Assembly (NCBI GenBank): GCA_958295905.1
Contig: OY282382.1
Coordinates: 2,318,001 to 2,382,000 of the forward strand
Origin: an uncultured Vicinamibacterales bacterium
GTDB taxonomy: Bacteria > Acidobacteriota > Vicinamibacteria > Vicinamibacterales > UBA8438
Direction of reading: 5' to 3'
DNA: 64,000 bases
A program made the position numbers and the translations under genes. A model generated the notes under the pieces. It did not search any database and was not told the origin of the DNA. It saw only the letters and a list, made by a program, of their open reading frames with translations. Positions 5,262-32,017 of the stretch are shown piece after piece. The first letter of the stretch is position 1. Every line of letters starts with the position of its first letter.

Positions 5262-5899
5262 GCGTGCCGCCCGTCCTTCCTCTCCCGGCGTGGCTTGGCG
5301 CACGCCATGTTCGGCAGTAGCCCCCGCGCCCTCAGCCGGGGCTTCGGCGCGGTGCGTACGGGCGGTCGGCGCCGGCCCGTCCACCGGGCGCCGCAGGAGG
5401 CGCGCCGGTGGGTGGACGGCATTCTTGCCGCACATGTCCCCGACGTTTCGCGGCGTCGGGGTGATCGTCCCCGATCACGACGGTTTGGTGCGGAAGGACG
5501 TTCGGTGTGAGAATGGCTCTTGGCGAAACGCCGCGTCGCCTCGGTGGCCTGCCCGGCCAAGCGTGACGAGCGCGCAGGGTCGGCCGGTGCGGCCGCGGAG
5601 CAGGACGCGGCTCCGAGGAACCGCGCCGTCGGACAGGATGCATCGCCGGTCGAACGTGGCGGCGCCGCTTACCACGGCAGGTGAAGCAGGAAGGCGACCA
5701 AGCGGTCAAGGATCGCCGGTCGAACGCAGCGGCGCCGCTTGCCACGGGGCGCCGGGCATCGCGCCGGCGGCACGAATTGGAGGGAACCGGGCCCACTGAA
5801 TCTGAAGAACAGCGAATGACGACGACGCGCTGGAGGACATATTCGCTCGGCGACCGTTCGGTCGGCGGCGTAAATCCGTGCTCCCCTTGGAGGTATCCC
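5262..5899. other. non-coding spacer with a short direct repeat
   Basis: No gene is recognised. A direct repeat of about 42 bp (ATCGCCGGTCGAACG, then GGCGCCGCTT) occurs at about 5641 and 5714, a spacing of 73. The last 25 bases carry the GGAGG ribosome binding site (5889-5893) of the TonB receptor gene. Promoter elements cannot be assigned with confidence in this GC-rich sequence. Confidence 0.6.
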
Positions 5900-11987: not shown

Positions 11988-13808
11988 TTACGCCGTCCTC
12001 GGAAAGAACGCGGCATCTTCCAATCCGAGGACCGGCACCGCCAGCGCCCGATCCAGATAGTCGTTGCGCATTTCGCACGACGTCTCCGAGATCAGGGTGC
12101 AGCCGTGGCAGGCGGCGCCGTGCAGCCACCGCCGTTCCAGGCTCCGGCCGGGCTCGTGCTGGGCGCAGATCGGATCGTTGGAGCAGAGCGCGCCGGCGCG
12201 CAGCGCGTCGGCGAGATGATCTTCGATGTGACGGGCCTGCTGCACCAAGCCGCCCAGCGTGCCCTCGGCGTCCGGGCCGCCGGTGTAGAGAAGAATGCCG
12301 AAACGCTCGCCGGCGGGTCCGGGCTCCGCGTAGATCCGTTCCCGGATGGAACTCGCGGGATAACCGCAGCGCATCGCCAGCGACTGGATCAGCAGGTGCG
12401 ACAGCGTGTGCAGCAGGACGTACGGTCCGCCCGGGAACGGACGCGCCGGCTGGCCGCCGGGCGTCCCGCGGCTCTCCGTCCAGGCGTTGTGCCCTCGGGC
12501 CAGATCGGCGAGCCGCCGCTCGACCGCCGGCCGTCTCGACCAGGCGTCCACCGAATCCGTGCGCAACTGCACGAACACGCCCTCGCCGCGGTTCTCGACG
12601 GCGGGAAACCACTCGGGGTCCAGGGCGATGGCCGCCCGCTCCACGTCTGTGTCGTATTCCCCGTGGATGTCCGGTGTCACCGCTTCGAAGCGGGTGAACC
12701 CGACGAGCGCCTGCACCTCCCGCAGACGATGAAGCTGAATCACGGAAGCCATCCCGCCGCCGAGCTCGGATCGCCGCCAGGCGTCGGACGGCAGGCGGCG
12801 GGCATGGAAGTCGGGATCGATGGTCACGTCGTCGCCGAACCCCTCGGGCGCCGCGAGCAGCGCGTCGAGTTCGACCTGTTTCACCGGCCGGTCGCTGCTC
12901 CTGCCGCGCCTGCGCCGGCGGATCGCGTCCAGAGTCTCGTCGTCGTCGAACGGATCGAGCGCCGCCGCGATCGCCGGTTTCCTCTTCATGAAGGCGAGTT
13001 CCGCGGCATCGTCCACGATCTGCAGGTCGTCCCACCGTTCGCCGACGGCGTTGTCGACCGCCGTGCCGCGGTCCGGCAGTGACAGCACGCTGACGATCTG
13101 CGGAAAGTAGGCGTTCGACGCGGTGCGGATCAACAGGCGGCTTCGCTGGTTGCAGTCCTCGTTCGTGTTGCGGCCGAGCCAGGGGCGGGCGCCCCGGCAA
13201 TTGCCGAGCGGATTCTGATCGAGCTCCGCCGCTTCGTAGAGCGGCCGAGTCCGCCCGCATTCGCAACGTATGAAGAGATCCGCGAGATCGCCGGTCGTGC
13301 CGCGTTCGTCCAGCCAGAGTTGCCGCCGGCAGACGTGGCCGGCGCCATGGACGAAACCGCGCCAGTCGAGATCGTCGACGTGGCCCCTCGGACAGGCGCG
13401 GACGAAGCGGGTGGGCACCACCGGCAGTTTCTCGAAACGCCCCCGCTCGTCCAATGCCTTGCGGTGGGCCAGACGCCGCGACCGGTCACGCGGTTCACCG
13501 CTCGACGGCCGGCCGCCGTCTTCCTGCACGACGAACCACTCGGGAAACCGCCATGCGCCGATGCCTCTCCGGGCCGCCCACGGTTCGTTCGGGCTTGGGG
13601 GCGGCGCGCAGAGCCGGGGCGCCGGCACGCCGGTCATGCGCCGGAGCTTGTGCGCGAGCCTCGTCTCGACCACCTCGTCGAGGCCCTTCGACCAAGTTTC
13701 GAGGCCGCCGATGATCGCCGAATGTTTCGGCAGGTCGATGAGCGCGCCGGGGCCGTAGGTGGTGATCACCTGACTCTGGCGAAGCTGTCCGTGGGCCCTG
13801 CGGCTCAT
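11988..13808 (-). CDS. drmB: DISARM protein DrmB (DUF1998-containing)
   Basis: 606 residues. The N-terminal signature GQLRQSQVITTYGPGALIDLP-type (residues 7 onward) is diagnostic of DrmB. The C-terminal half carries the DUF1998 region with a cysteine cluster (CSNDPICAQHEPG ... ACHGCTLISETSCE), probably a zinc site. In DISARM, DrmA and DrmB form the core complex that recognises and blocks incoming phage DNA. The ATG at 13808 overlaps the drmA stop codon by four bases (ATGA), so the pair is translationally coupled; the frame is open further upstream only as a shadow of drmA. It is the last gene of the island. DISARM loci usually have drmC (a phospholipase D protein) after drmB, but here the next gene is convergent and unrelated. 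Confidence 0.88.
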   Translation of the reverse strand: MSRRAHGQLRQSQVITTYGPGALIDLPKHSAIIGGLETWSKGLDEVVETRLAHKLRRMTGVPAPRLCAPPPSPNEPWAARRGIGAWRFPEWFVVQEDGGRPSSGEPRDRSRRLAHRKALDERGRFEKLPVVPTRFVRACPRGHVDDLDWRGFVHGAGHVCRRQLWLDERGTTGDLADLFIRCECGRTRPLYEAAELDQNPLGNCRGARPWLGRNTNEDCNQRSRLLIRTASNAYFPQIVSVLSLPDRGTAVDNAVGERWDDLQIVDDAAELAFMKRKPAIAAALDPFDDDETLDAIRRRRRGRSSDRPVKQVELDALLAAPEGFGDDVTIDPDFHARRLPSDAWRRSELGGGMASVIQLHRLREVQALVGFTRFEAVTPDIHGEYDTDVERAAIALDPEWFPAVENRGEGVFVQLRTDSVDAWSRRPAVERRLADLARGHNAWTESRGTPGGQPARPFPGGPYVLLHTLSHLLIQSLAMRCGYPASSIRERIYAEPGPAGERFGILLYTGGPDAEGTLGGLVQQARHIEDHLADALRAGALCSNDPICAQHEPGRSLERRWLHGAACHGCTLISETSCEMRNDYLDRALAVPVLGLEDAAFFPRTA

Positions 13809-16800
13809 GGCGCCACGTCCCGGCCCGTCGGTTCCCGGATGAACAGGTCGACCTCGGGCTCGACGTCGCGCAGCGATCGGTTCGCGCGGAACTTGCGGTG
13901 GTGCTCGGATTCGAACTCGGTGTCGAGCATCCCGCGCAGGAGCGGCCGCCCCTGCTTCGTCTCGTACTGCTGATACTGCACCGCAACGTTGTCGGCGTGG
14001 TAGTCCTCCACCACGGCGCACCACGAATCCAGCAGCTCGACGACACGGCGGCGCACGCTTCCGATCCGCTCCGAGCGCTCCGTTTCGCCGGCGAACGGTT
14101 GCTGAGCGACCCGTTGCTCGAACGATTCAAGCAATCCGCCCTCCAGTCGGGCGCGCACCTCCGTCAGACGTTCGACGCCGTCCGGCGGCGTCAGCTTCGC
14201 TTCGGCATGGCGGGCCAGCCCCACGAGCGCGCCGGCCAGCCCGCGATCGAGGGCGCGCACCGAGAACGGCGTCACGCTCGATACCTCCACCGAGCGGTAG
14301 AAGGTCTCGTGGTAGTGCCGGAACCGCTCGTAATGTGAGCGGTCGCGCGGCTTGTGGACGTTCAGCAGCGTCACCACCAGCCCCGGACGCCGGTCGCCGC
14401 GCCCCACGCGGCTGGTCGCCTGGATGTACTCCGCGTGCGTCTTCGGTTGGCTCAGCACCACCATCAGGCCGAGCCGGGGAATGTCGAGGCCGACGGAGAT
14501 CATGTTGGTCGCGATGGCGCAGTCCACCCGATCCGACTCGTGAAAGGCGCGCTCCAGGCGCCGGCGGGCGGCGGCCACCTGGTCGGTCGATACCCGCGAC
14601 GTCAGCTCCACCACGTCCGAGAACGTCCTGCGGTCCTGGAAGAGACCGTGCGATTCACCGATGCGCCGCCGCTGACCGTACTGCCTGACCGTGTTCCGAA
14701 CTTCCTCTTCCAGGATGCGCCGCGCCCCGCCCAACTCGCGCAGGCTGTTGAAGTAGCCGAGCACGGTCATGTACGGATCGGCGGGATTGTCCCGGTTCCT
14801 GTGCCCGCCGGCGTCCCGGTACGCCCGCTCGGCTGCGCCCATGAGCGCGAGCCAGACGCGGCGCATGAGCACCTTGGGGTTGCGTCCCGGAGACGCGATG
14901 CCGAGATAGGCTCGGCCCGCGATGCGCTCCACCGGCAGGGTACGCGCGAAGAAGGAATCGCGGCGGTTCGGGCCGGGCGGCGGAAAGACCTGCGTGACGG
15001 ATCTCGCGAACAGCGCCTGGATCTGATCTTGGGCTTGGCGCGCCGTGGCGGTGGACGCCACGATCTTCGGCCGCACCGGCCGGCCGCCGGCCGCGCGCGC
15101 GCACAAGGCGTCGATCACGGACTCGTACAGGCCGACCATGGTGCCGAGCGGCCCGGAGATCAGATGCAACTCGTCCTGGATGACGAGGTCCGGCGGCGGG
15201 AGAGGGCGTTCGAGACGCCGGCCCGTCCGTGGTTCCGCCGCGCCGTGGAAGCCGGCCTCGTCGTATCGATCCGCGCCTCCGAGAAGCGCGCCGGTCCGCG
15301 CCTCCCACGGCAGAGACGCGAACTTGTCGACGGTCGCTATCAGGAACGCCGGAAGACGGCGGTAGATGGGTTCGTCCACGGCGAGGACGGGGAGCGGCCG
15401 GTCGCCGCTGAAGTCGCATTCGAAATTCGTGCAGACGACGCGCAGCTCTTCCGGCCGGTCGTCGTTCGGCAACAGCAGGAAGGAATCGGCGGTAAACCGG
15501 GTCCCGCACCACGGGCAGCTCTCGAGCGGGACCGGGCAGGGCCTGCCGCCGGGGTCCGCCTTGAACTGCCGGGTCCTGGCGCGAGCCGAATCCGATCGAT
15601 TGTCGCCCTTGCGGCCCATGAAGTTGGGCGTCGCCGCCTTGCCGACCCACAGACCGATCTCGAACGGCCATCCGCCGTACCGCTCGACGTCGTCGGCGCG
15701 CTCCAGCTCCAGCGCGCAGACGAGACCGGCCGCGCGGGCGAGCTGATCGAGCGTGAGCAGGCGCAGCGTGTACCGCATGATGACGCTCACACCGGCGCCC
15801 TGGCGTCCGTTCCGACCCGGGTTGCGCAGTCTCCGCAGCGTCATCGCGAGGGCCGCGAGACCGAGATACGCTTCGGTCTTGCCGCCGCCGGTCGGGAAGA
15901 AGAGCAGATCGACGGTCTCGCGGTCGGGGTCGTCAGGAGCGGCGAGGCCGGGGATGTTCAGCACGATGAAGGCGAGCTGAAAGGCGCGCCAGCGCGGCGG
16001 CCGATCGGTGAACTGGGTCGCGAACCGCTGCCGCAGGGCGCGCGCAACCGCGCGGTTCGCGACGCGGAAGGCGTCGAGCACGTCCGCGTCCGCGGCCAGA
16101 ACGGTGATGCCGCGCTCCATGCGATCGGCGGCGATCCCCGCCAGCCGCAGCAACTCCGCGGCGGTGTTGCGCCGCGCATCGGGCAGCGCTCCGATCTCCG
16201 CCCGCCGGGATTCGATCCATTCGCGGTATCGGTCCACCAGGGGCCGGAGCGCGGCGCCGGCGGCGGGGCCGTCAGGCAGCGCCCCCAGCACGCGCATCGA
16301 CAACGCCGCGCCCGGCACGTCCGCGGTCTTCGTCTCCTCCACGTCGGCCCTGGGGATCCACGCGGTGCGCAGCGTGCGGCAGGCGCCGCTCACCACTTCC
16401 CAACCCGCCGACACCCCGTGGCCGGTCGCGTACTCGGGGGTGTCGGCGTAGTGGAGGTCGGCCACCTGCTCGTCCCAGTCGGCCGCCCGGACGCCGCGTG
16501 GATCCGGCCGGGGCACGAACGGCTGCCGGCCGCGGATCTCGATCTCGGTTTGGAAGGCGTAGGCCCGGTCGGGGTTGCCGTCGTCCGGCGCACGCCGGTT
16601 CACCAGAAAAACCGACACCGACCGTGTTCCTGCCGGGATCTCCGCGAGCCCGTCGGTATCGACGAGCCGGTCGTCAACGTGAAGCGTGAGACCACCGGAG
16701 TCGGGGACCTCGTGATCGCCGGGTCGATGCTCTTCGGCCGGAGAGAGCGTCACCGTCACCGTCCGTTCGTTCGACCGCCGCAGCCAGACCGATTCGCACT

Positions 16801-17212
16801 TCCCGTCCGCGCCCGCGGCCTCTGCGCGATCGTAGTCCCCCCACCGCACCGTCACGGCCAGGGCGTCCGCCCCGCCGGCCACGAGGAAGCTCAGTCCCAT
16901 CGACGACGGAAAGAAGCCTTTCCGGGCCGCCTTGCGCTCCTCGGACGACTCGTCCGGCAGACCGCCCGACGCCGGCGCCTCGTCCAGATCGTCGTCCTCG
17001 TCGGGGTCCGCCCTCTGCTCCGCCTTCGTGCCGGACGGAATCAGGAACCCGGTCAAATACCAGTTCGACGGACGCACCCAGCCGGGCAGCCGCTCGCCGG
17101 AAAGGGCGTGGTCCGCCCACGGACCGATCAGGTCGAGGTTCAGCGCTTCGACCAGGCGTTCGCGCACGCCCGCGGCGTCGACCACACCACCCGCGGCGTC
17201 TTGCCGTGTCAT
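13805..17212 (-). CDS. drmA: DISARM helicase DrmA
   Basis: 1135 residues, the usual DrmA size. A large N-terminal region (1-430) precedes a superfamily 2 helicase core. Walker A is FFPTGGGKTEAY (TGGGKT at 441-446), the DEAH-box variant is DELH (680-683), motif III is STATAR, and motif VI is YIQATSRVGRG near residue 945. A four-cysteine insert (CPWCG at 566-570 and CTNFEC at 594-599) lies between motifs I and II and may bind zinc. Literature on DISARM shows that DrmA-DrmB is an ATP-dependent DNA-binding core. The start ATG at 17212 overlaps the stop of the short upstream frame (ATGA). The first codons (MTRQDAAGG) closely resemble the last codons of that upstream frame (MTRQETAGT), so a small local duplication is visible at the junction. 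Confidence 0.9.
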   Translation of the reverse strand: MTRQDAAGGVVDAAGVRERLVEALNLDLIGPWADHALSGERLPGWVRPSNWYLTGFLIPSGTKAEQRADPDEDDDLDEAPASGGLPDESSEERKAARKGFFPSSMGLSFLVAGGADALAVTVRWGDYDRAEAAGADGKCESVWLRRSNERTVTVTLSPAEEHRPGDHEVPDSGGLTLHVDDRLVDTDGLAEIPAGTRSVSVFLVNRRAPDDGNPDRAYAFQTEIEIRGRQPFVPRPDPRGVRAADWDEQVADLHYADTPEYATGHGVSAGWEVVSGACRTLRTAWIPRADVEETKTADVPGAALSMRVLGALPDGPAAGAALRPLVDRYREWIESRRAEIGALPDARRNTAAELLRLAGIAADRMERGITVLAADADVLDAFRVANRAVARALRQRFATQFTDRPPRWRAFQLAFIVLNIPGLAAPDDPDRETVDLLFFPTGGGKTEAYLGLAALAMTLRRLRNPGRNGRQGAGVSVIMRYTLRLLTLDQLARAAGLVCALELERADDVERYGGWPFEIGLWVGKAATPNFMGRKGDNRSDSARARTRQFKADPGGRPCPVPLESCPWCGTRFTADSFLLLPNDDRPEELRVVCTNFECDFSGDRPLPVLAVDEPIYRRLPAFLIATVDKFASLPWEARTGALLGGADRYDEAGFHGAAEPRTGRRLERPLPPPDLVIQDELHLISGPLGTMVGLYESVIDALCARAAGGRPVRPKIVASTATARQAQDQIQALFARSVTQVFPPPGPNRRDSFFARTLPVERIAGRAYLGIASPGRNPKVLMRRVWLALMGAAERAYRDAGGHRNRDNPADPYMTVLGYFNSLRELGGARRILEEEVRNTVRQYGQRRRIGESHGLFQDRRTFSDVVELTSRVSTDQVAAARRRLERAFHESDRVDCAIATNMISVGLDIPRLGLMVVLSQPKTHAEYIQATSRVGRGDRRPGLVVTLLNVHKPRDRSHYERFRHYHETFYRSVEVSSVTPFSVRALDRGLAGALVGLARHAEAKLTPPDGVERLTEVRARLEGGLLESFEQRVAQQPFAGETERSERIGSVRRRVVELLDSWCAVVEDYHADNVAVQYQQYETKQGRPLLRGMLDTEFESEHHRKFRANRSLRDVEPEVDLFIREPTGRDVAP

Positions 17213-17550
17213 ACTGTACCTGCGGTCTCTTGCCGCGTCATGGGAACGTTCTCACGGAAGCAACTCCCGTCACCCGCCTTCACCGCGGCTCCTTCCGGCT
17301 CCCCGGACTCCCCGTGACGGCCGCCGTCCGCCAGTTGCCGCACCGCGCCGTCCTGCAGCGCGCTCCACCAGAAGGTCTTGCCGGCGCCCCGCATGCCGGT
17401 CACGAGTTGGACGTCCGGGTGCAACGCCTTCACGTGGGACGGCGGCAGGTAGACGCGCCCCGGCGACGGCGGGCCGCCGCCGTGGCTCGTGCCTTCAGGC
17501 AGAGCCAGAAGCGCTTCGCGCAGCGCCGCGGTGCGGGTTCCGCCCCTCAC
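17209..17550 (-). pseudogene. truncated P-loop ATPase, N-terminal stump
   Basis: A 113-codon frame starting at a GTG that overlaps the stop of the ParA-like gene (GTGA) and ending in a 4-base overlap with drmA. It contains an N-terminal region of the form YLPPSHVKALHPD, then a clear Walker A, GMRGAGKTFWW (about residues 52-62). The remaining ATPase core (Walker B, sensor, C-terminal domain) is absent: after about residue 75 the sequence becomes a short unrelated tail. I read it as the beginning of a larger ATPase whose body was deleted when drmA was brought next to it. A functional short protein cannot be excluded because the overlaps on both sides are clean. Confidence 0.6.
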
Positions 17551-18833
17551 CGGCGATCTCCGTCGTCGTCCATGACCAGACCGTCGAAGCGCCGCAGGAA
17601 CGTTCCGTATGCCTGGGCCACGGTCGCGGCTTCCAGGTCCTGCAACGACGCACCCGCCGCGAGACCGCGGGTCCAGTGGATCGGCAGTGGATCGTGCGGC
17701 GCGTCTTCCTCGTCGACATCGAAGGAGTAGGGTTCGCCGCCATTCCCGGATGGCTCCACGTCGCCGTACAGACCGTCCCGGAACAGATTCCACGACTTCT
17801 CCCGGAACCCCTGCAGGTACCGCTCGGTGTCCAGCTCCGGCGTCAATGCGGAAACGATGGACAGACGGTCTCGGATGGACGTCGCGAGCAGGCGCGTCTT
17901 CCAATGCCGGAAGAGGATTTCGTGGTCGGCCCAGGTGCTCGTCGAGTCGACGGCGAACAGGAGCACGTGCGCGTCGACGTCGGTGACCGCGGCGGCCGCG
18001 ACGTCGTGCAGTCCGCTGCGGCTCTCCAGGAGCACTACCGTCGGTTCGAATTTCGCCTCCAGGCGTTGCAGCAGGCCCCTCAACCGCACGTCCCACGGGG
18101 CGGGCCGGTTCCGGTAGACGCGGCCGAGTTTGGCCAAGTAGTCCCCGGGGGCGCGGCCGTGCGCGGGGGCGACGCCTACGTCGCCCGGCGAGTCCTGCGC
18201 CCATCGCGGCGATGCCAGCATTCGTTCGACGACCTGATCGCCCTGCCCCACCAAATCTTCCACGAACCAGTCGGTGACGCCGAACCGCGGTCTCGCCGCG
18301 TGCTCCAGCATGGCCGAGGACAATCCGGGAGATTCGAGATCCAGATCGACCACCAGAACACGCTCGCTCTTTCGCGCCAAGTGCCATGCCAGGACGGCGG
18401 CTGTCGTGCTCCGGCCGACGCCGCCCTTGACCGAGAACAGCGTGCAGCGCCTTGCGCCGTCGCGGCGTCCCGCGTCCTGCCCGACGGACCACCAGCCGCG
18501 TCCCGTCAGCAGCCGATCCGCCAGGTAGACGCCTCGGCGGACCTCCGGGGCAGGTTCGAGAGCCTTCAGCAGCGCGTCGTCCACGAACAGCACGGCGCGG
18601 TCGGGTGCGTAGCCGTGCGCTCCCAGCCCCTCGTGCAGGGCGCGGGCGAGGCGCTGAAGGGCGTCCCGGCAGGCCGGGTCCCCTTCCAACCGGTCGGATA
18701 CCGACAGGCGCACCCTGCCCGACAGATCCCGCACCAGATACAGCCGGTCCACCGCATCCGGCATCGGACCCGAGTGCTCGACCGCAGCGACGATGCGGTC
18801 GTACATGTCATCGAACGAAACGAAGTCGTTCAT
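17547..18833 (-). CDS. ParA/MinD-like P-loop ATPase
   Basis: 428 residues. The N-terminal 140 residues resemble no domain I know. They are followed by a deviant Walker A of the ParA/MinD type, FSVKGGVGRSTTA, then VLVVDLDLESPGLSS (Walker A' / switch I Asp) and a hydrophobic strand VVLLESRSGLHD where ParA proteins have their Walker B. It is therefore a dimerising SIMIBI-class ATPase and not a helicase. The start ATG at 18833 overlaps the stop of the HEPN-like gene (ATGA) and its own stop overlaps the next gene (GTGA). This tight packing puts it in a three-gene module (HEPN-like, ParA-like, P-loop ATPase) embedded between vsr and drmA. Plasmid partition is unlikely: no ParB or parS is seen. Confidence 0.8.
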   Translation of the reverse strand: MNDFVSFDDMYDRIVAAVEHSGPMPDAVDRLYLVRDLSGRVRLSVSDRLEGDPACRDALQRLARALHEGLGAHGYAPDRAVLFVDDALLKALEPAPEVRRGVYLADRLLTGRGWWSVGQDAGRRDGARRCTLFSVKGGVGRSTTAAVLAWHLARKSERVLVVDLDLESPGLSSAMLEHAARPRFGVTDWFVEDLVGQGDQVVERMLASPRWAQDSPGDVGVAPAHGRAPGDYLAKLGRVYRNRPAPWDVRLRGLLQRLEAKFEPTVVLLESRSGLHDVAAAAVTDVDAHVLLFAVDSTSTWADHEILFRHWKTRLLATSIRDRLSIVSALTPELDTERYLQGFREKSWNLFRDGLYGDVEPSGNGGEPYSFDVDEEDAPHDPLPIHWTRGLAAGASLQDLEAATVAQAYGTFLRRFDGLVMDDDGDRR

Positions 18834-19223
18834 GCCAGACCATTCTGCCGCGCCGCTTCGACGATCGCGCCGACGGCGTCGGCGGCGTCCCGATGCGCCT
18901 CGACGTCCGACCTGCCGCAGTAGCCGCCGTGCGCGTAGCGGTCGTGAGGGGACCGGTCGGCGAACGGCTCGCCCGGCGGCAGCCGATCCCAGGTATTCCG
19001 CGTTCTCCAGGGTCTCGACGAAGCTCTGAGGTACCGAGCCACGGGCGTTCCGGTCGTGGGATCGACTGGCATCCCGCACGCTTTCATCACCGCCTTCAAG
19101 GCCGCATTCCGCGCTGAACCCGTACAACTGATCGGCGTTCGCCCAGCGCCCGCGCCCGAAGAGCAGCTCCGCGTCCGCCCGGTGGCGGTGGTGCGCGTCG
19201 ATGAAGTCGGCGGGATGCGGCAT
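18830..19223 (-). pseudogene. HEPN-like helical protein gene with a one-base frameshift
   Basis: Two overlapping frames form one protein. The first begins MPHPADFIDAHHRHRADAEL at 19223 and runs through ANADQLYGFSAECGL. The second takes over with KAVMKACGMPVDPTTG and ends at 18830, where its TGA overlaps the ParA-like start. The stretch RxxDAELLFxxGRWxxADxLYGxxAECGLK is how helical HEPN-type proteins of defence loci begin, so I call it HEPN-like with moderate confidence. Removing one T from the CTTGAAG run near 19100 would join the frames. The clean stop/start overlap at its end shows that the second frame is real coding sequence. The single-base change may be genuine inactivation or a sequencing error. 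Confidence 0.6.
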
Positions 19224-19246: not shown

Positions 19247-19672
19247 TCAGTCCGCTTCATCGGCCAGGAATTCGTACACGCTGGACATGACGCGATCGAT
19301 ATCCCGCAACTCGCACTCCCATATCGTCAGGACCCGCCAGCCCGACTGCTCGAGCGCCGTGGTGCTGTTGCGGTCACGCAGCCGGGTGGCCGCCAGCTTC
19401 GGCTTCCAGAAGCCGACGTTGGATTTGGGCAGGCCGGCTATCGGGCACCGCGGATCGGGATGCCAATGCCAGAAGCAACCGTGCACGAAGATCACGGCGC
19501 GGCGGCCCGGCAACACCAAGTCGGGCGTACCCGGCAGGTTCGGGCGGTGCAGCCGAAACCGATAACCCATCCGGTGCACAATGGACCGGACGATACGCTC
19601 CGGCTTCATGTGGCGGGACCGAATCCGCGACATGCACCTGGACCGGTCGACCGCACTCAAGTTGTCGGCCAT
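19247..19672 (-). CDS. vsr: very short patch repair endonuclease (Vsr)
   Basis: 141 residues starting MADNLSAVDRSRCMSRIRSR. The catalytic residues fall at the same positions as in E. coli Vsr: Asp51 (GTPDLVLP), His64 and His69 (FVHGCFWHWH). Cys66, His71, Cys76 and Cys120 are candidates for the structural zinc site. Vsr nicks beside T:G mismatches that arise when 5-methylcytosine deaminates, so its partner here is the C5-cytosine methylase two genes upstream. The matching residue numbers support the ATG at 19672 over the in-frame ATG 135 bases upstream. It lies 177 bases after the helicase-nuclease stop (19850), and the HEPN-like gene follows 23 bases later. Confidence 0.92.
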   Translation of the reverse strand: MADNLSAVDRSRCMSRIRSRHMKPERIVRSIVHRMGYRFRLHRPNLPGTPDLVLPGRRAVIFVHGCFWHWHPDPRCPIAGLPKSNVGFWKPKLAATRLRDRNSTTALEQSGWRVLTIWECELRDIDRVMSSVYEFLADEAD

Positions 19673-19849
19673 CGTTCGGTCCGTCCGAGCAAGCCGGTTG
19701 TCCCCCGAGAACGTCGTCTCCGCAATGTCCGTCGGGCGGGCGCCACGGCGCCGAGCCCGAGTCGTCGATACCATGAGTCGAGTCTCGATCTCCTTGCGCG
19801 AGAGCAACCGGGGCCGGGTTGCGCGTCGGCGAAGAACGCACGAGCCGCG

Positions 19850-22783
19850 TCATTCCTCGACTTCGCTGATCGCCCGCGCCTCCTTCCGGCGGGCTCCGGG
19901 CAGATGCAGCGCCGGCGGCGCATCACCTGTCCCGAACTCCCCCCGTACCATCGGACAGAGACGCTTCCAGTCGCAGGACCCGCACTTGTCGCGGTGCGGC
20001 CTCATCGGGAAGTCGCCCGCGACGATGCGTTCCGCCGCCCACTCGACGTTCTCAACGGCGGCCCCGACCGCCGCCTCGTCGACGGGGACCTCGATGCGTT
20101 GGCCGTCCTTGAGGAGGTGGACGTGACCTGTCCGTGCGTTGGCGTCGAGCACATCCGCCGCCGCCCTGGCGTAGAGCTGCACTTGCAGGGCAAGCTCGCT
20201 CCAGTCGAGCTTCGGGTTGTTCTCCGGGTTCGGGCCGCCCTTGATGGACTTGAAGTCGATGACGCTTGCGTCGAGGATCCGCCCTTGGCCGTCGAGGCGC
20301 ACGAGCAGGTCGATTGAGCCGCCGAGCACGGAGTCGCGCAGCGGGATTTCGAAACGGACCTCAAGCTGACGGTGATGCACGAAGTCGTCGCCGTAGCCTT
20401 CGGCGTAGCGGCTGACGATCCCGGCGGACGCGTCGGCGGCACGCTCGTAGGCACCTGGACGCTCCACGGGATCCCGGCTCGGCGGCACGTGCTTGAGATG
20501 GAAGATCCCGCGCGCGACCGCCTCGGCTTCCGCGGGTGTCGGGGGGCGTTGCGGGTACTGCTCGTGCAGCTTCCCGACCGCGGCGTGCACCGTCTGTCCG
20601 AAACCGAACATTTCGGGAATCGGGGGGCTGAAGCCCCACACGTAGCGGAACTTGTAGTCCCGGGGACAGCGCAGGTAGTAGCGGATCTCGGAGAAGGTCG
20701 TCGGCAGCACCGTTTCGTCGGCCCGGCGGCGGGGTGCCGCCGACGGCAGATCGTTCGGCGGCAGTTCGTGCGCGGCAGGCGCGGCCCGCGCCACGTCTTT
20801 GTCGTTCAACCGCGCCGAAAACGGTGATGCCTTGCGGGCTTTCTTGCCCCCCGGCAGCAGTTTGGCGTGTGTGACGTACAGGAACCGCTCGGCCCGGGTC
20901 ACAGCCGTGTAGAAGAGCCTCGCCTCCTGCTCGCGGTTGTTGCCGTACGCGAGCCGCGGGGGCTGGACTGCGCCCCCGATCACCTCGTCCGGAAGCCAGC
21001 CGGCATACGCGCTGCGGCGTCCGGGGAAGCGTTGGCCCTCCGCGTCGACGATGAAGACGACCGGGTACTCGAGACCCTTGGCCTTGTGAACGGTCGACAC
21101 AGTGACGGCATCGGGACGCCGCACCGCGCCATCCTTCGCCGACTGGTAGCCGCTTTCGCCTATGTTCTGCATGAAGTTCAGGATTCCGCCGAACCTCTGG
21201 GGCGTGTCGATGCTGACGTACACAGTCTCGACGTCTTGGAGCAACCGGCTCAACATGCCGATGTCGGCCGCCACGCCATCGTCCTGGTCGGCGCCGGCGA
21301 AATCGCAGGCGGCGAGCAGATCGTGCAGAAGTTGCTGCGGGAAGACACGGCGCCGTTCCACCTCGATCGGCGTGTGGATGCGTCGGCCCCAGTCCGCGTA
21401 CAGTTCGGTCATGGCCCTGTTCTGCGCACGGGGGAACACCGGTAGGACTCGTTCGGCCACGAAGCGGAGCACGGTATCGCGATCGGGTGATTCGTCGCGG
21501 AGCAGTTCCATGGCCTCGCGCAGCACCGCGACTTGCGGGCGTCCGAACACGCTGCCGCCGGCCTCCAGCGTGTACGGTATGCCGCGCGTTTCGAGTGCGT
21601 CGCTGAACGCTTTTGACCTGGCGGTCCCGTCTTGTTCTCCGCTTCCTGTAGAGCGCATCAGGACGGCGAAGTCCGCGTGGGTGAGGCCGCGCGGCCCGCC
21701 GTCGTCGTCATAGGAGCCCCCGAGCAACGCCGAAATGCGCCCGGCCACCCATTCCGCCTCCATCCGGCGGTCGTCGAATCCGAACGCCCCGAGCTGGTGC
21801 GGACCCCGGCCCCGGTCGGCGGTTGGAGACTTCAGCAAGCGGTTGGCGCCGATCTCTGCGCGCACGAACGCATCCGCGCTGCGCACGATCAGCGGCGTGC
21901 TGCGGAAGTTGTGAGCCAGCGTGTGCCGGCTCGCGGCTGGGTTCCGGACGTGGAACTCCAGGATGTTCTGCACGTCGGCGCCGCGCCACCCGTAGATGCT
22001 CTGGTCGTCGTCGCCCACGACGGTCAGCGTTTTACACTTCGACGACCTGAGAGCCCGGATCAGTTGTTCTTGAAGCGGGTTGGTGTCCTGGTACTCGTCC
22101 ACCAACAGATGGCGAATCCCGCCGATCGCGTCCAGCGTTGCCGGGTCGCCCGCTTTCAGACGATCGACGATCAGCCTGATCAAGGATGAGAAATCGATGT
22201 AATTTGATTGGTCCAACAAGTTGCGAAGCCGCGACAGCGCCTCACCGAGATCCGGGTCGTGCGACTCGACATCCTCCAGGTCCAGCACTTCGTCGTGCAG
22301 GTTCGCCCAAGCGCCGGCCAGCCCGGTAATCCTGTCGAAGTAGCGCGCTCGCTTGCCGAAGCGCTGGATCCCCAACTTCGCGTAGCGGGAAATCAGGAAC
22401 AAGTGCAGGCCGTTCTGATCGAGAACGTCGAACTGGCGGTAACGCGCGTCGACAAGCACGAGCATCTCGCGGCAGAACCCGTGGATCGTCCCGATGCGGA
22501 CCTTCCCGACCTCGGTCGGCGGCCGGCCCGTCCTGAACAGCGCGGTGGCGACGCGCTGGCGAATCGAGTCCGCGGCCTTCTCGGTGAACGTGAACGCGAC
22601 GATCGATGCGGGGTCGGCTCCGCGCGAGATCAACCACGCGATTCGGTAGGCCAGCGTCCGGGACTTGCCGGAACCCGCGCACGCGATGACGAGGACGTCC
22701 GCGCTCTCGTCCGTCGCCGCCGCGCGCTGTTCGTCGGTGAGTTCCCGCCTCAAGATGTCGTCGATGTCCGCGGGGCCGCTCAT
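19850..22783 (-). CDS. UvrD/PcrA-like superfamily 1 helicase with C-terminal Cas4/AddB-like nuclease domain
   Basis: 977 residues. SF1A helicase motifs are clear: Walker A ACAGSGKS (34-41), FTFTEKAA (Ia), DEYQD (229-233), GDDDQSIYGWRGA, HNFRST (IV), VHKAKGLEYP (V) and TAVTRA (VI). The last 250 residues form a PD-(D/E)XK nuclease of the RecB/AddB/Cas4 class, with VIDFKS and four iron-sulfur-type cysteines (one in RCPRDYKF, three in CGSCDWKRLC). Domain order resembles AddA-like proteins fused to a nuclease. Its ATG overlaps the methylase stop by four bases (ATGA). A role in processing phage DNA ends is an inference from the island; it is not one of the standard DISARM genes. Confidence 0.9.
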   Translation of the reverse strand: MSGPADIDDILRRELTDEQRAAATDESADVLVIACAGSGKSRTLAYRIAWLISRGADPASIVAFTFTEKAADSIRQRVATALFRTGRPPTEVGKVRIGTIHGFCREMLVLVDARYRQFDVLDQNGLHLFLISRYAKLGIQRFGKRARYFDRITGLAGAWANLHDEVLDLEDVESHDPDLGEALSRLRNLLDQSNYIDFSSLIRLIVDRLKAGDPATLDAIGGIRHLLVDEYQDTNPLQEQLIRALRSSKCKTLTVVGDDDQSIYGWRGADVQNILEFHVRNPAASRHTLAHNFRSTPLIVRSADAFVRAEIGANRLLKSPTADRGRGPHQLGAFGFDDRRMEAEWVAGRISALLGGSYDDDGGPRGLTHADFAVLMRSTGSGEQDGTARSKAFSDALETRGIPYTLEAGGSVFGRPQVAVLREAMELLRDESPDRDTVLRFVAERVLPVFPRAQNRAMTELYADWGRRIHTPIEVERRRVFPQQLLHDLLAACDFAGADQDDGVAADIGMLSRLLQDVETVYVSIDTPQRFGGILNFMQNIGESGYQSAKDGAVRRPDAVTVSTVHKAKGLEYPVVFIVDAEGQRFPGRRSAYAGWLPDEVIGGAVQPPRLAYGNNREQEARLFYTAVTRAERFLYVTHAKLLPGGKKARKASPFSARLNDKDVARAAPAAHELPPNDLPSAAPRRRADETVLPTTFSEIRYYLRCPRDYKFRYVWGFSPPIPEMFGFGQTVHAAVGKLHEQYPQRPPTPAEAEAVARGIFHLKHVPPSRDPVERPGAYERAADASAGIVSRYAEGYGDDFVHHRQLEVRFEIPLRDSVLGGSIDLLVRLDGQGRILDASVIDFKSIKGGPNPENNPKLDWSELALQVQLYARAAADVLDANARTGHVHLLKDGQRIEVPVDEAAVGAAVENVEWAAERIVAGDFPMRPHRDKCGSCDWKRLCPMVRGEFGTGDAPPALHLPGARRKEARAISEVEE

Positions 22784-23901
22784 GTCGCCACCCCCGCCGT
22801 GGCGCGCAGGCGGCGGAGCATCCGCGCCTGCGGCGCGACGAACCCGGGCGGAATCGCATTGCCGACCATCTCCGCCGCGGCGTACTTGCCGCGGCGCAGA
22901 GAGACGCGGTGATTGCTTGGGAACCCTTGCAGCAAGAGAGCCTCGCGGACGGTGATCGCCCGATCTTCCTCAGGGTGCAGGAACCGTCCCTTGCTGGGAT
23001 TGATGCAGCCCCCCGTGATTGTCGGAGCCGGGCGGTCCCACGCCATCCGTGCGTAGATGTTGCGTCCCCAGCCGTGCCCGTGCCGTGCTGCGCGGCGGTG
23101 GCATTCGAGTTGTTCGTCGTCCGGAAGGTCGGCCCGGCTGCCGCCGTCTCTGCGAATCGCGGCGATGACGGCGCGCACGCGCTCGGCGCGCTGTTCGCCG
23201 TGGTCGTGCAACGGGTCTCCTGAGCGCCCCGCGCTACGGGCGAGCCCGCCGATGGCGTCACGCACGGTCCGCCCCTCTGCGCCGCCCCCGGCGAGAGTCG
23301 GCTTCCCGCGGCGGGCGGCGACGAACACCAGGCGGCGCCGTTGCTGCGGCGTCCCGAAATCGGCGGTGTCCAGCACACCGCAATCGTAGAGCATGCCGCA
23401 GGCCGTGATACCCTCGGTGAACGCCCTGAACAAATCGTCGGTGCCAAGTCCCGGAACGTTCTCCATCAGCACGAGACGCGGCCGGATTTCCCGAACCAGC
23501 CGCAGGAAGTCAAGGACAAGGGTGTTGCGGTCGTCGTGCAGGGCCTCCCGGCGCCGGGTTCGAATCGCCGAGAACCCCTGACAGGGCGGGCACCCGGCGA
23601 GCAGATCCAGTTCGCCCTCACGCAAACCGGCGGCCCGCAGCAACCCGGACGCCGTGCCGGGGTCGCGCACATCGCCCGGGATGACCGGCACGCGCGGAAA
23701 ATTCATGCGGTAGCTCTCCACCGCAAGCGGCAGGACGTCAATCGCGGCGGCCACACGAAAACGCGCCTGCCGCAGTCCGAGGCTCAGCCCCCCCGCCCCG
23801 CAGAACACGTCGATGGCCGTGGGCCAGCGCCGGCCCGCTCCCGCCGCATGCTTCAGCCGCACATCCGCCTCCGCACAGTCCGCCGCCGACCGTTCGTCCA
23901 T
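22780..23901 (-). CDS. C5-cytosine DNA methyltransferase (DrmMII/Dcm type)
   Basis: 373 residues with the ordered C5-methylase motifs: I, DVFCGAGGLSLG (31-42); IV, GCPPCQGFS with catalytic Cys107; VI, ENVPG; VIII, QQRRRRL; and X, GNAIPP near the C-terminus. In DISARM a C5 methylase (DrmMII) marks host DNA in class 2 loci. Here it sits with Vsr and the helicase-nuclease, inside an island whose other genes are of class 1. It could alternatively be a solitary Dcm-like methylase with its own Vsr. It overlaps the downstream helicase gene by four bases and lies 114 bases after the broken adenine methylase gene. Confidence 0.92.
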   Translation of the reverse strand: MDERSAADCAEADVRLKHAAGAGRRWPTAIDVFCGAGGLSLGLRQARFRVAAAIDVLPLAVESYRMNFPRVPVIPGDVRDPGTASGLLRAAGLREGELDLLAGCPPCQGFSAIRTRRREALHDDRNTLVLDFLRLVREIRPRLVLMENVPGLGTDDLFRAFTEGITACGMLYDCGVLDTADFGTPQQRRRLVFVAARRGKPTLAGGGAEGRTVRDAIGGLARSAGRSGDPLHDHGEQRAERVRAVIAAIRRDGGSRADLPDDEQLECHRRAARHGHGWGRNIYARMAWDRPAPTITGGCINPSKGRFLHPEEDRAITVREALLLQGFPSNHRVSLRRGKYAAAEMVGNAIPPGFVAPQARMLRRLRATAGVAT

Positions 23902-24015: not shown

Positions 24016-27000
24016 TCAGTCATCGGACGCCCCCCAGAGCGGACGCGGCTCGGCCGCGTGCGGGGCGTCGGATGGGCGGCGTACCGCACGGCGCGGTGAC
24101 CGGTCGGTCTTCTGCCGCGCGGCCGACGCGGCCGTCCCGGCGCGGGCTTCCGCGGCGGCGCGCTGCGCGTTGAGCTCCAGCAGGCGGGCGAGGACCTCGT
24201 CGCGGACTGCATCCGGCCAGCGGTAGCGGTACGGCTTCTTGCGGGCGCCCCATTCATCTTCGTCGATCTCGTGGTCGAGCAGGAACTCGCAGTCGGTCGG
24301 GACGTCGCGCCAGCCGTAGGCGTCGAGGACGGCGCGGTCCATGGCCGCGTGCAGGCGGCGGAGGGTGGCGACGTCGGGGTCGTTCCCGCCAGGGTCGTGG
24401 AAGCGGTTGCAGGTCTTGGTCAGCCCTTCGTTGTTCTCGAGCATCAGCGCGGCGCGGAAATCATGGTACGCCTTGCCGGCGGCTTCGAGGCCGGGGTGGG
24501 TCTCCCAGTGCTCGGGGAACGGGAACGTCTCGAAGCAGTCGGAGGGGGTATAGCGGAGGCGGTCTTCCAGGGACGAGCCGAAGAAGCGCGCCCAGATTTC
24601 GTGGGGGCGGGACTGAAGGATGCAGAAGTTGGCGTAGTCGGAGAACGGGAACACGATGGTCGAGTCGGCGTACACCCGGCGTTCGCCGCCAGCCGCGCGG
24701 GATCGTCGTGGCCGCCCCGGTGGAAGAGAAACGCGGTGATCGTGTCCGCCGCGGCGCCGTCGAGGCGGCGCGGCCCGGCGCAGCCCCCCTTTCGCACGTG
24801 GACGACGCTCACCACTACCGCCGCCTGCCCGGGCCACGGGCGCCGTCGGCGGGCGTGGTAGACCTCGCCGCCGTGCGTGCAGATCCAGCGGAGGCCGGTA
24901 GCGCGGGTGTCGCCCTGCGCGATGGTGTTGGTGGCGATCAGGCCGAACGCGCCCCCGCGGCGCAGGAGGGTGAACGTCCGCCGGAAGAAGTGGGCCACGA
25001 GGTCGGCGTTGCCGTGGCTCTCCTCGTGCGCCGCCTTGAGCCAGTCGGGGTAGCCGGCGGGGTTGCCCGCGGCCACGGTGTTCTTCCCCGCGAACGGCGG
25101 ATTGCCCACGACGGCGTCGAACCCCGGGTCTTGCCGCTCGAACACCTCGGGAAACTCGATCTCCCAGTGGAACGGGGCCAGCGGCGGGTCGCCGCGCCGA
25201 AGCTCTTCCGTCCAGCTTCCGTACCGCGCCATCCCGCCGCGCTGCACCGCGTCTGCGAAACGCCGGCGGTGCTCCTCGCGCGGCTTCGGCTTGCCGCCCT
25301 CGAAGAATGCCGCCACGGCGAGATCGCCGAGCAGGCGGACGTTGCGCGCTTCGAACCTGGACTCGTCCCACCGATCGCGCAGTTCGCGGTCGGTGATGGT
25401 CTCGTCCGCTTCACGGATGCGCCGGCGGAGGGCGCTCGCGCGGGCTAGGAGTCTGCGCCGCAGAACGGTTTTGGGTCCGATTTGGCACAATATGTAGCGG
25501 TCAATCGTCAGAGCTTGCGCAACATATGGTGGTCATAATTTCCTGCGGCGCAGACTCCTAGGTGCTCCATCCCCTGTATCGCCTCGAACCCCGGCTGGAA
25601 CTCGGGCGCGTCGGCCTTCCAGTGGAAGGTCTCGATCTGCCGGCGCGAGAGGCCGACGAGGGAATCGCCGTGGCGCAGGGCGTGGTCGAGGAAGGTGAAC
25701 GACTCGTTCCTGGCGAGGGTCGCCAGCCAGAGCGACAGCTTGGCGAGGTCGACCGCCACGGGGTTGCGGTCGACGCCGTAGAGGCAGCGTTGCGCGATCA
25801 GGCGGCGCGCGGCGACCACTTCGTCTTCGGCCGTCGCGGGGCGGGGCCGCGCGGGGTGGGCGCGCCGCGCCTCGACGAGCGCGTCGCCGAGCTGGCGGCA
25901 GGCTTCGACGAGGAACGCGCCGGAACCCATGGCGGGGTCGCAGACCTTCAGGTCGAGAATCTGCTCGGGCAGGAGCCGCGTGCGGGGCGACGGCGCGCCC
26001 GAGCCGGCCGCATCGGCGGATTCGGCCCGCAGACGGTCGAGGACCGGCGCGAGCGCCTCGCGCACGATCGGCTCGGTGAGGGCGCGGGGGGTGTAGTGCG
26101 AACCGGTGCGCCGGCGCTCCGGGCTCGGCTGCAGCACCAGCGCGCCCGCCGGCACGAGGTCCGGCGTCGCGTTCCGGTCGATGACGGGATCGAGGGCGGC
26201 GTGCAGGTCTTCAAGGGTCCGGGCGGCCTGCGCCGCCCGCTTCACGTTGTCGGTCAGCCGGCGGTCGGTGCGGTCCTGGACCCACTTCGCGCGGCGGGCC
26301 GGCGTCTCGTCGAGCAGCTCGTCGAGGCTCAGCGTCGCCGGCGCGCCGTGCTTCTTCCCCGCCTTGACGGCCACCGAGCGGCCGGTCGCGGTCTCCAGCC
26401 GGAAGCCCATCATCGTCTCGTAGACGGAACCGATCTGCTCGACGTCGAGGGCGCGGTACGAGATGCGCTCGCCGCCGAGGACGAGCAGCTTGTCGAGCAC
26501 GCGGTAGATCGTGCCGTCGGGCACGAGGGGGGGCTCGATGCGCTCGTGGATCTGGCGCGCCCGGCCGCCGGCGCGGCCCTCCAGGAACGGATGGCGGTCG
26601 GGGTCGAACAGGTCGCCGCGGCGGGGCGGCAGCGTCAGCCCGCCCGCCGCGGCGCCGTCGTGGACGATGCGGAACAGGGCGAGGAGCTGCGCCCAGGCGC
26701 CGTACCGCTGATCCATCGTATCGGGGTGGAGCGCGGCGTCTTCGCGCAGGCGCTCGTACAGGGCGGCGGGCGCGTAGGCGCGCCGGAAGGTCTCGTCGTC
26801 GGGCAGCATGTCGCGCTGCTCGGCGTAGAGGAGGAAGACGAGCCGCAGCAAGACCGCGAGGAGCGCGCGGTAGATCTCGTCGGGGCGGTCGGCGAGCGGC
26901 TCGCGCAGCAGCGCCCCGTGCGAGGCGTCGTGGGCGGCCTGGAGGCCGCGCAGCAGCTCGTAGAGGGCGTGCAGCACCTGTTCGGCCAAGCGCTCGCCGA

Positions 27001-27793
27001 CGTCGTTCTGGTGCCGGCGGCTGTCCGCGAGCAGGGCCGCGAGGCGCTTCCCGCGCGGCACGCTCAGCAGCCGCGTCTGGCCGAGCAGCAGACGGAGCGC
27101 CGCCGCGATCGGCCGGCCCGAGGTCTCCAGCATGTCGGCCACGCGGAAATCGAGCCAGCCCGAGCTCTCGCCGCGCGGGGCGGAGACCAGACGCAGGGCG
27201 ACGCCGTTGAACAGCAGGCCGGCCGGGACCCCGGTATGGCGCAGCAGGCGCTCCAGGCGGCCGTGGGGCGAGGCGTCGAGACCGCCGGAAGCGCGGGCCG
27301 CGCGGTCGAAGTCTTCGCCGGCGCCGCACGCGCAGACGAGAAGCTGCCAGTCGGGAGAGCCGGCGGGCGCGCCGTGCGCGGGCGCGGATTCGCGCGCCGC
27401 GGCGGCCGGGGCGGGTTGCGGCGCGTTCCGCACCGGTTCCGACCGCACCGCGAAATCGGGGCGCAGCACGGCGCCGGCCTCGGGGAGCGCGGCTTCGAGT
27501 TCGGGCGGGACCGGCGCTTCGTCGGTGCCGGCGTAGGCGCGCGGCGAGAAGTTCCAGTCGAGCACGGACGCCGCGAAGGCGCGGAAGTCCGGCAGCCAAG
27601 GCGCGGGCGCGACCCCCGGTTCGACTCTGCGTTCCTCGACGCAGGCGCGGAGCCGCTGTTGTCCCTCGGTGTCCCGCCGGTTCAGGATCGCCCCCGCGCT
27701 CACCAGGGCCGGCGCAGACACCACGAGGCCGGTGGGCCGGACGAAGCCCAGCCATTCGAGGTGCGCGGCGACGTGCGGGTCGTGTTTCGCCAT
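24016..27793 (-). pseudogene. drmMI: Eco57I-class N6-adenine methyltransferase (DrmMI type), split by a miniature element and a frameshift
   Basis: The first segment (27793-25562) holds an N-terminal region and methylase motif I, CDPAMGSGAF. The second (25444-24680) holds the catalytic motif GNPPF (25092-25106). A third (24680-24016), in another frame, holds the target-recognition and C-terminal part (RVYADSTIVFPFSDYANF). Segment one is ended by a stop inside the inserted element at 25445-25561. Deleting 113 bp there would restore the frame as ...GMEHLARASALRRR. A second break near 24680 needs one extra base in a GGG run (AANAG / RVYADS). DrmMI is the adenine methylase of class 1 DISARM and protects host DNA. 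As it stands motif I and NPPF are on separate polypeptides. Its start lies 12 bases after the drmD stop, so the two form an operon. Confidence 0.85.
25445..25561. mobile_element. 113-bp MITE-like element inserted in the adenine methylase gene
   Basis: The ends are 18-base inverted repeats (TAGGAGTCTGCGCCGCAG and its complement), and CTAG occurs at both borders as a probable 4-bp target duplication. The interior is AT-richer than its surroundings (GGCACAATATGTAGCGG, then CAACATATGGTGGTC). A second copy, identical in the interior apart from a few bases, lies at 38012-38128. Precise loss of 113 bp rejoins the methylase reading frame, which shows that this is a recent insertion. It has no gene of its own, so it must be mobilised in trans, if at all. 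Confidence 0.88.
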
Positions 27794-27805: not shown

Positions 27806-30800
27806 TCAGTTGGTCTCCGGCCACAGGTAGACGAGGCCGACCGGCTCGACGCGCCGCGCGCGGACCTCGTAGAACGCGCGGATACGGTCGGGCTCGCGAT
27901 CGAGGTCCTGGTCGAACTGCGTCAGACGCAGTTTCCAGGCCCGCACGTCGGCTTCAAGCTGCCGCTGCTCCTCGGGGCTGAACGCCAGCGCCATCTGCCC
28001 GCCGCCTTCGTCGTGCCGCCGCAGCTCGTCGCGGACGCGCGTGCGCTGGCGCTCGAGGGTCTCGCGCAGGCTCCGGGCCTCCTGTCCGCCGCGCCGCCGG
28101 AGCTTGTCGACGGCGGCGTCGGCCAGCTCCGCGGCGCGCGGTTCGAGCTGCGGCAGGAGTTCCTTGATGTCGCCGGGGGCGGATGCGAGCAGGCGGCGCC
28201 GCACCGTCTCCGGCGGCGCGCCGGGACGGCCGAGCGACCGGTCCAGCAGGTCCAGCGTTCTCGCTTCGGCCTCGCGGGCGTACGCCTTGAGCGGGCCCGA
28301 GCGCCTCGCCGGCTCGGTCCAGCGCGCCGCGACGGGCACGATCTCTTCGTGCAGCCGCTCGGCCCCGCGCCCGTACAGCGCCAGCCGGCCGAGCAGGATC
28401 ACGCGGGGGATGGCGTCCGCCGCCTGGGCGAGACAGGCCCGCGACAGGTCATGGTGGACGAAGCCCTGGGCGCGGAACCGGGCGAGCAGGCGTTGCGCCA
28501 CGCGCTGCCCCAGATGCAGATGGACGGTGTCGTCGCCGAGCACGCCCGGGTCGTCGAAGACGACGGGGCGGATGGGCGCGTCGCGGCGCCAGTCGGCGAG
28601 CTTCTGATCGGTTTTGCGCGGCGCGCGCAGCGTGTCCAGCGTGGCCGTCCAGCTCGGATCGGCCGCCGCCCGGCGGTCGAGCGGCGGGAAGGTCCAGACC
28701 GGGTTGCCGTGCCGGTCCGGTCCGGGCCGGAGCGGGTCTGCGCCGAGCAGATCGAGCGAGCAGGAAAGCGCGTCGCGGAACGGCGCCGCCTCGAACCCCA
28801 CCCACTTTCGGGACCGGTCCAGGAGCTCGCGGCAGCGTTCGACCTGCTCGTGCAGGGCGTCTTGCCGCCCGCGCGCGGCTTCGAGCTCGTCTTCGGCAAG
28901 ACGCCGGCGTTCGGCGTCGACGTCCGCGGCGTCGATCTCTCGGGCGAGCCGTTCGGCGTCGCGGTGGCGGATGCCGCCGGCGTTGAGACGGCGTTCGACG
29001 TCGTCGTCGATCACCTTCGAGAGGCTGCCCAGTTCGGTCTTGATCGTCTCGGTCTTGCGGACGAGCACCTCGAGTACCCGGTCTTCGGCGCGCTGGGGCA
29101 GGACGAAGTAGTGGCAGCGCACCTCGGGCGCGGGCTGGAGCTTGCGGTCGATGCGGCCGTTGCGCTGCTCGATGCGGCCGGGGTTCCAGGGCAGGTCGAA
29201 GTGGAACAGGTCCGTGCAGTGGGCCTGGAAGTTCAGCCCTTCTCGGGCGGCGTCGGTGGCGAGCAGGATGCGCAGCGGATCGCGTGCCGGATCGGCGTTG
29301 AAGCGGCGCTGGATCTCCCGGCGGCGGGCGCCCCCGGTCAGACCGTCTATCGTCTCGATTCGTTCCTCGGCGCGGTCCGTGCCTTCGACGGCCTGTTCGA
29401 GAACGTCCCGCAGATAGCGTTTCGTGCCCCGGCGGTTCTCGGTGAAGATGAGCACCCGCCGGTCGTGCCAGCGGGGCGGCGCGCCGGCGGGGGAATCGCC
29501 GAACGGCGGCAGGCCGGGGCAGAGGTTCGCCCGGATCCAGTCGATCAGGCGGCGGGTCTTGGCGTCGGGCAGGCATCGGGACCGGTCGGCTGTCTGCTGC
29601 ATCCGGTCGAGAAGCCGCCGCTCGCGTTCGGGCAGGGGCGCATCGCCGGCGGACGGGGTTGCGGTTTCGGCCGCGCGGGTCAGCGCCGCGATCCGTTCGT
29701 TCTCTTCGGCCTCGATCTCCCCGTCGTCCCACGCGCCGCGCTCGTCGTCGGCGTCCGGCGGCGTCAGGAACGGGTCGTCCGGCTTGCCGCCGGTCGGTGA
29801 TTCTTCGGTTGGAGGGCCGCCGGCCCGCGGCCTGCGGTCTGCCGCCCTGTCGGGGCCTCCTCCGCCGCCCGCCGCCCGCCACTGCCGCTCCACCGTCGCC
29901 CGGTGCGCCGTCAGGCTGCGCGCGAACGCCTCGATGGACGAGAGCAGACGCTGCTGCAAGCCGACCACGAGCAGGCCGGCGGCGGCGCGCGCCCGGCCGG
30001 ACGCGCTTCGGTGGCGCTGTTCACGCGCCGTACGGTACTCGTCGAGCAGGCGCGACAGGACCAACTCCGGCGCGTCGTCCGGCAGGCCGGCGATCTTGAT
30101 GCGCTCGATCACCCGCCGGGGGAACCCGTCCTGAAACTGACGGACGTCCTCCTTGAGCCGGCGGACCATGACGTCGTCGAGCGCTCTCCGGCCGCGCACC
30201 TTGACGCCGCGGGTGAAGCGGTAGGGGTCGAGCAGTTCGAGCAACGTCGAAAAGCTGTTCGAGTGGCCGTTGTGCGGGGTGGCCGAGAGGAAGAGCCGGT
30301 GCTCGAAGCGTCCGCCGAGGTCGCGCATGGCCCGGGTGAACTTCGTCTCGATGCCGTAGCGCCCGCCGCTCGACGGCGCGGCGTGGTGGGCTTCGTCGAG
30401 GATCAGCAGGCTGCCGGGCCGCATCGGGCCGAGCCACTCGCGCAGCGGGTCGGCGTAGGCGGCGTCGACGAGCAGGTTGTGCGAGACGAGGAACCGGCTG
30501 TGGGTGCGCCAGGGGTTGACGCCGAAGCCGCGCTCGCGGCGCATCCGCGAGACGTACCCGCGGTCGAGCAGCTCGAAGACCAGTCCGAACCGTTCGTCCA
30601 GCTCGCTCTTCCACTGTTCGAGCACGGACGGCGGGGCGGCGACGACAATCACGTTGACCTTGCGGCGCAGCAGCAGCTCGCGGGCGATCAGCCCCGCCTC
30701 GATGGTCTTGCCCAGACCGGTGTCGTCGGCGATGAACAGGTTGACCCGCGGCAGCCGCAGCGCCTTGCGCAGCGGTTCCATCTGGTAGGCGTCGATCCTG

Positions 30801-32015: not shown

Positions 32016-32017
32016 CG

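Follow-up and report, generated by a model that had tools for sequence, protein, structure and literature searches.

A probable decayed copy of the candidate system PDC-M28 within a class-1 type DISARM locus

The window, a stretch of 64,000 nucleotides from the genome of an uncultured Vicinamibacterales bacterium, very probably contains a decayed copy of PDC-M28 within a class-1 type DISARM locus, with ~1.2 kb of M28C lost, M28A frameshifted, drmMI broken and M28B alone left intact. PDC-M28 is a candidate anti-phage system already modelled in PADLOC (PADLOC-DB v2.0.0, PDLC04557-04561), to whose components A, B and C the three genes were assigned from their sequences. The PDC series presumably originates from Payne et al. 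2024. A literature search retrieved neither publications naming PDC-M28 nor a published function or phage-protection test for any PDC-M28 protein.

The module lies on the minus strand and retains the A-B-C order. M28A, a HEPN-like gene recognised by the PADLOC PDC-M28A model in two frames, is a frameshifted pseudogene at 18830..19223 (-), and is followed by M28B at 17547..18833 (-), which encodes a ParA/MinD-like ATPase of the KGGVGR type. The third reading frame (17209-17550 (-), 113 aa) is composite, comprising an M28C remnant at 17332..17550 (-), which corresponds to the first ~73 codons of an ORC/STAND-like ATPase of ~480 codons, and a junction filler of ~119 bp at 17213..17331 (-), which was delimited by alignment with the orthologous locus of a same-family genome (G420). 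Consecutive genes are joined by 4-bp overlaps on this strand, namely ATGA between the stop of the M28A frame and the M28B ATG (18830-18833), GTGA between the M28B stop and the GTG of the short gene (17547-17550), and ATGA between the stop of the short gene and the drmA ATG (17209-17212). The preliminary description had reported three genes with exact 4-base overlaps; all three overlaps are indeed exact, but the HEPN-like gene is not one intact reading frame, being spread over two frames with an extra T. This frameshift had been missed there, as had the broken drmMI. A scan of species genomes with M28B returned 79 related loci from many phyla, with an exact 4-bp A/B overlap in 70 and an exact 4-bp B/C overlap in 49, plus five further loci with B-C fusions, so that the couplings exceed chance. 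The window module thus shares with PDC-M28 its gene order, its protein families, the 4-bp couplings and a position inside a larger defence system, and differs from it in that A is frameshifted and C is reduced to ~73 of ~480 codons.

M28B (428 aa) was matched at full length by the PADLOC model PDC-M28B (PDLC04559; E=9.7e-130), with residues 1-421 of 428 aligned to model positions 1-433 of 438. The protein scored above the cut-off of NCBIfam AAA_KGGVGR and carries the motif SVKGGVGRST, in agreement with its earlier description as a ParA-class ATPase. It is the sole intact gene of the module in the window. No relatives of M28B were found in phage genomes.

Within M28A, the frame opening at the ATG at 19223 matches PDC-M28A at positions 3-40 only (E=2.2e-17) and continues in frame into M28B, whereas the frame ending in ATGA at 18830 matches positions 33-137 (E=2.8e-9). 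The split was reproduced with our own profile, built from 71 relatives. One extra T is present in the window where the frame changes (GGCCTTGAAGG vs AGTC-TGAAGG in the orthologous G420 DNA), and the single open M28A frame of PDC-M28 is lacking. Programmed frameshifting was considered as a route to M28A and set aside, since the second frame also has a gap of ~8 residues over the invariant-histidine block. Separately, M28A was found split between frames in six related loci (L036, L038, L065, L067, L072 and L077), and it may be the most readily lost part of the module. Locus L072, from Halomonas salicampi, holds a decayed M28 with M28A in three frames and M28C down to its last ~90 positions.

The short gene matches PDC-M28C (E=3e-20) over positions 6-74 of 480 only, and our own M28C profile over positions 8-78 of 483. 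Full-length M28C (~480 aa) is therefore missing from the window, and what is left is a remnant rather than a working member. The preliminary description had recognised it as the stump of a second ATPase with the Walker A motif GMRGAGKTF, and the profile match bears this out. The stub frame stays open through the filler to drmA. The 119-bp filler gave no convincing match to G420, to the related loci or to other parts of the window's genome. Its last 29 bp imperfectly repeat the drmA start in tandem (17241-17213 / 17212-17184, 22/29 identical), a level that none of 20,000 tandem placements drawn at random within the island attained.

The history of the junction was read from the G420 locus, in which drmA/drmB share 84% DNA identity with the window over 5.2 kb and the shared M28 pieces 81-87%. 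Close alignment runs from the M28B end to M28C codon ~73 (window position 17331), where the identity ends; the stretch from this point up to the start of drmA measures ~1.24 kb in G420, where it is M28C, and ~119 bp in the window. The G420 M28C contains two internal frameshifts and reaches its normal C-terminus (GGVKPDRSA, stop), followed by an ATGA overlap with drmA. Because M28C at its normal end joins the same drmA by ATGA, the drmA junction is the older event and the ~1.2-kb loss the later one. The alignments show an ancestral locus with M28A-M28B-M28C-drmA-drmB in line and an M28C of ~480 aa. In G420, a deletion has joined codon ~53 of M28A to codon ~390 of M28B, and the drmA frame is broken at codon 31. 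On this comparison, the window and G420 lineages inherited one arrangement and lost different parts of it.

The surrounding operon has drmD, drmMI, drmA and drmB in line, as in DISARM with drmD and drmMI (class-1 type). Intact drmD (27806..31153 (-), 1115 aa) was identified by PADLOC DrmD (E=1.3e-299), the intact DISARM helicase drmA (13805..17212 (-), 1135 aa) by NCBIfam DISARM_DrmAS (1140.5 bits, cut-off 950), and drmB (11988..13823 (-)), which is open to its normal end, by NCBIfam DrmB_fam (561 bits, cut-off 240). DrmMI is clear in PADLOC, and tblastn with three uninterrupted homologues placed the broken gene at 24016..27793 (-) in three frames, with breaks near 25500 and at 24675, the latter with ~180-210 codons missing. 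The locus thus combines drmA, drmB and the class-1 gene drmD with a drmMI methyltransferase that is not intact. It further differs from the class-1 type in that a trio of vsr, UvrD/PD-(D/E)XK helicase-nuclease and dcm-type C5 methyltransferase genes (19247..23901 (-); Pfam Vsr, UvrD-helicase + PDDEXK_1 and DNA_methylase) and the M28 remains are inserted between drmMI and drmA. The reading frames of the UvrD-type and dcm-type genes are open; the dcm-type methyltransferase (22780-23901) matches DrmMII (5.9e-42) and has better matches to other methyltransferases. A codon-use scan placed most other genes of the window in one frame. A TonB-type outer-membrane gene at 5681-8818 (+) has an in-frame TAG at 7493-7495 (LYLQD*WSIDDL) and is otherwise open on both sides. 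Upstream of drmD on the other strand, 31719-33229 (+) encodes a HigB toxin (Pfam, 4e-30) and, after it, a protein of 405 aa whose N-terminal part is antitoxin-like; a segment of this stretch (32013-32376) is also conserved in G420, where it immediately precedes the M28A remnant.

Two other M28 copies were located in the genome of the window (G000). One is a second, complete (A, B and C) and divergent PDC-M28 set at C1:538731-541231 (L002/L008/L019), whose own M28B is only ~30% identical to that of the window. The other, at C1:5772181-5772432 (-) (L016/L018), is what remains of the C-terminal part of another M28C and contains two in-frame TAG codons. It was rejected as the missing piece of the window copy, as it has no DNA similarity to the window region; with 69% identity to a same-genus M28C vs 60% to the G420 orthologue, it was classed as a separate remnant.

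Among the 79 loci, full-length M28C follows M28B in 69, the exceptions being mostly contig ends, and M28A directly precedes M28B in 75. The full-length homologue that had been expected beside ParA-like and HEPN-like genes is thus the M28C of ~480 aa, and its homologues are not short proteins of ~110 residues confined to a place ahead of drmA, since they also occur without DISARM. In five loci (L034, L039, L041, L043 and L044), a single reading frame spans M28B and M28C. Stand-alone M28 was found on a Tistrella plasmid and, beside an integrase, on a conjugative Enterobacter plasmid; a further copy lies within BREX-2 on a Thiodictyon plasmid, and several genomes have a DUF1156 methyltransferase before M28 and a PLD helicase after it. 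Four DISARM loci (L028, L040, L041 and L045) carry M28 with full-length M28C between drmMI and drmA, and two (L023 and L044) carry it upstream of drmD; in L028 and L044 no M28A was detected. The earlier view of an independent three-gene system agrees with this occurrence on plasmids, in BREX-2 and in DISARM loci, both with and without DISARM. In a quick tree, the DISARM-linked copies fell inside a single clade of 26 members, together with 19 copies that had no visible DISARM (visible meaning within 10 kb or the contig). Since the linked copies are mixed among the others in this clade, the association with DISARM was probably gained or lost more than once.

The proteins of the intact system were characterised from relatives. 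In both structure comparisons with the model of an intact M28A relative (pLDDT 95.5), HEPN domains made up nearly all of the top rows, with VIA-align Z values of 11-13 that helical bundles can attain by chance, so that the argument for HEPN is the consistency of the rows. M28A is accordingly predicted, from this model, to have a HEPN fold; Pfam HEPN_AbiV was matched weakly by 12 of 43 M28A members. This predicted fold is shared with the HEPN toxins and effectors HepT, AbiV and Csm6. In contrast to these, M28A lacks a conserved R-X4-6-H RNase motif, with a histidine at +4 to +7 after invariant R105 in only 14 of 40 relatives, and has its own invariant residues instead (R13, E39, C40, K43, H67, W100, R105 and Y106, in L024 numbering). 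For M28C, the structure model (pLDDT 91.6) has BrxC and archaeal ORC/Cdc6 as its nearest folds, and weak AAA_16 and NACHT matches were recorded. Its likeness to BrxC, ORC-Cdc6 and STAND P-loop ATPases is qualified by low TM-scores (0.3-0.4), by its own conserved C-terminus ending in GRRGGVKP and by the ParA-like partner that always accompanied it in the loci examined. Searches of PDB sequences with the M28A and M28C profiles gave no real match.

These features allow a mechanism to be proposed for the intact system, in which M28C, as an ORC/BrxC-like P-loop ATPase, and ParA-like M28B would constitute a nucleotide-driven sensor or switch recognising infection. The switch would free HEPN-fold M28A, which, by chemistry on RNA or nucleotides, would damage either the cell or the phage. 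The fusion of M28B and M28C in five genomes suggests joint action of the two ATPases and is the basis for pairing them in this scheme. We infer such a two-ATPase switch controlling a HEPN-fold effector only tentatively, with somewhat less than an even chance of its being right. Because R-X4-6-H is not conserved, any chemistry of M28A would need to be unusual, or M28A may be a binding subunit.

The lesions in the window are taken as real decay, mainly because two of them are large losses, of ~1.2 kb in M28C and ~0.6 kb in drmMI, which are not typical assembly errors. Breaks of a single base might in principle stem from faulty assembly, and a wholly artefactual origin of the frameshifts and the short gene, with an intact true locus behind them, can draw on the single extra T in M28A and on the in-frame TAG at 7493-7495 in the unrelated TonB-type gene. 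Such an origin is nevertheless very unlikely, since 119 bp of other sequence replaces ~1.24 kb of M28C, drmMI is without ~180-210 codons, drmA, drmB, drmD and the helicase are all open, and the relative, which comes from another assembly, decayed differently. The preliminary description had instead proposed that the island captured a three-gene system, the third gene of which was cut at the moment of joining to drmA. In favour of this, the stub's end coincides exactly with the ATGA overlap at drmA, and M28 is found elsewhere without DISARM; however, M28C of normal length precedes drmA in four other DISARM loci and in G420, where it already overlaps drmA by ATGA, and a separate acquisition of the G420 M28C is unlikely, given that the M28 pieces common to both genomes are 81-87% identical in DNA. 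We therefore regard truncation at the joining as highly improbable.

Decay being the preferred reading, the remaining alternatives concern what may still be used. The uninterrupted M28B and the stub ending in ATGA at drmA could mean that something is still selected. There is a small likelihood that M28B has been retained as a functional component, whether in the service of DISARM or as a partner for the HEPN and ATPase proteins encoded by the second M28 copy: M28B is uninterrupted and a complete A/B/C set exists at C1:538 kb, yet that set already includes an M28B, which is only ~30% identical to this one, and the same-family relative G420 lost M28B while keeping drmA/drmB. It is also unlikely, if less so, that the 113-codon stub is maintained as a bridge for translation, passing ribosomes from M28B to drmA. 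The stub is open through the filler and has 4-bp overlaps with both neighbours, and the 29-bp copy of the drmA start immediately precedes the one now in place, but at this G+C content it is not improbable for ~119 bp to stay open. A combined version, in which the module has been reduced to M28B and a short bridge tying the production or activity of the DISARM helicase to M28B, with the HEPN effector and the ATPase lost, is given little credence. As M28B is the only intact M28 gene of the decayed copy, the module almost certainly yields no working system at this locus, and it is probably dead in this genome.

The comparison describes the intact system as a HEPN-fold A without the usual RNase motif, a ParA-like B and an ORC/BrxC-like C, with B-C fusions. 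It also presents an embedded defence module that was lost piecemeal inside its host system, with drmA/drmB largely intact in both genomes. Because two related genomes lost different M28 parts while largely keeping drmA/drmB, M28 appears to be an optional passenger of DISARM rather than a working part of it.
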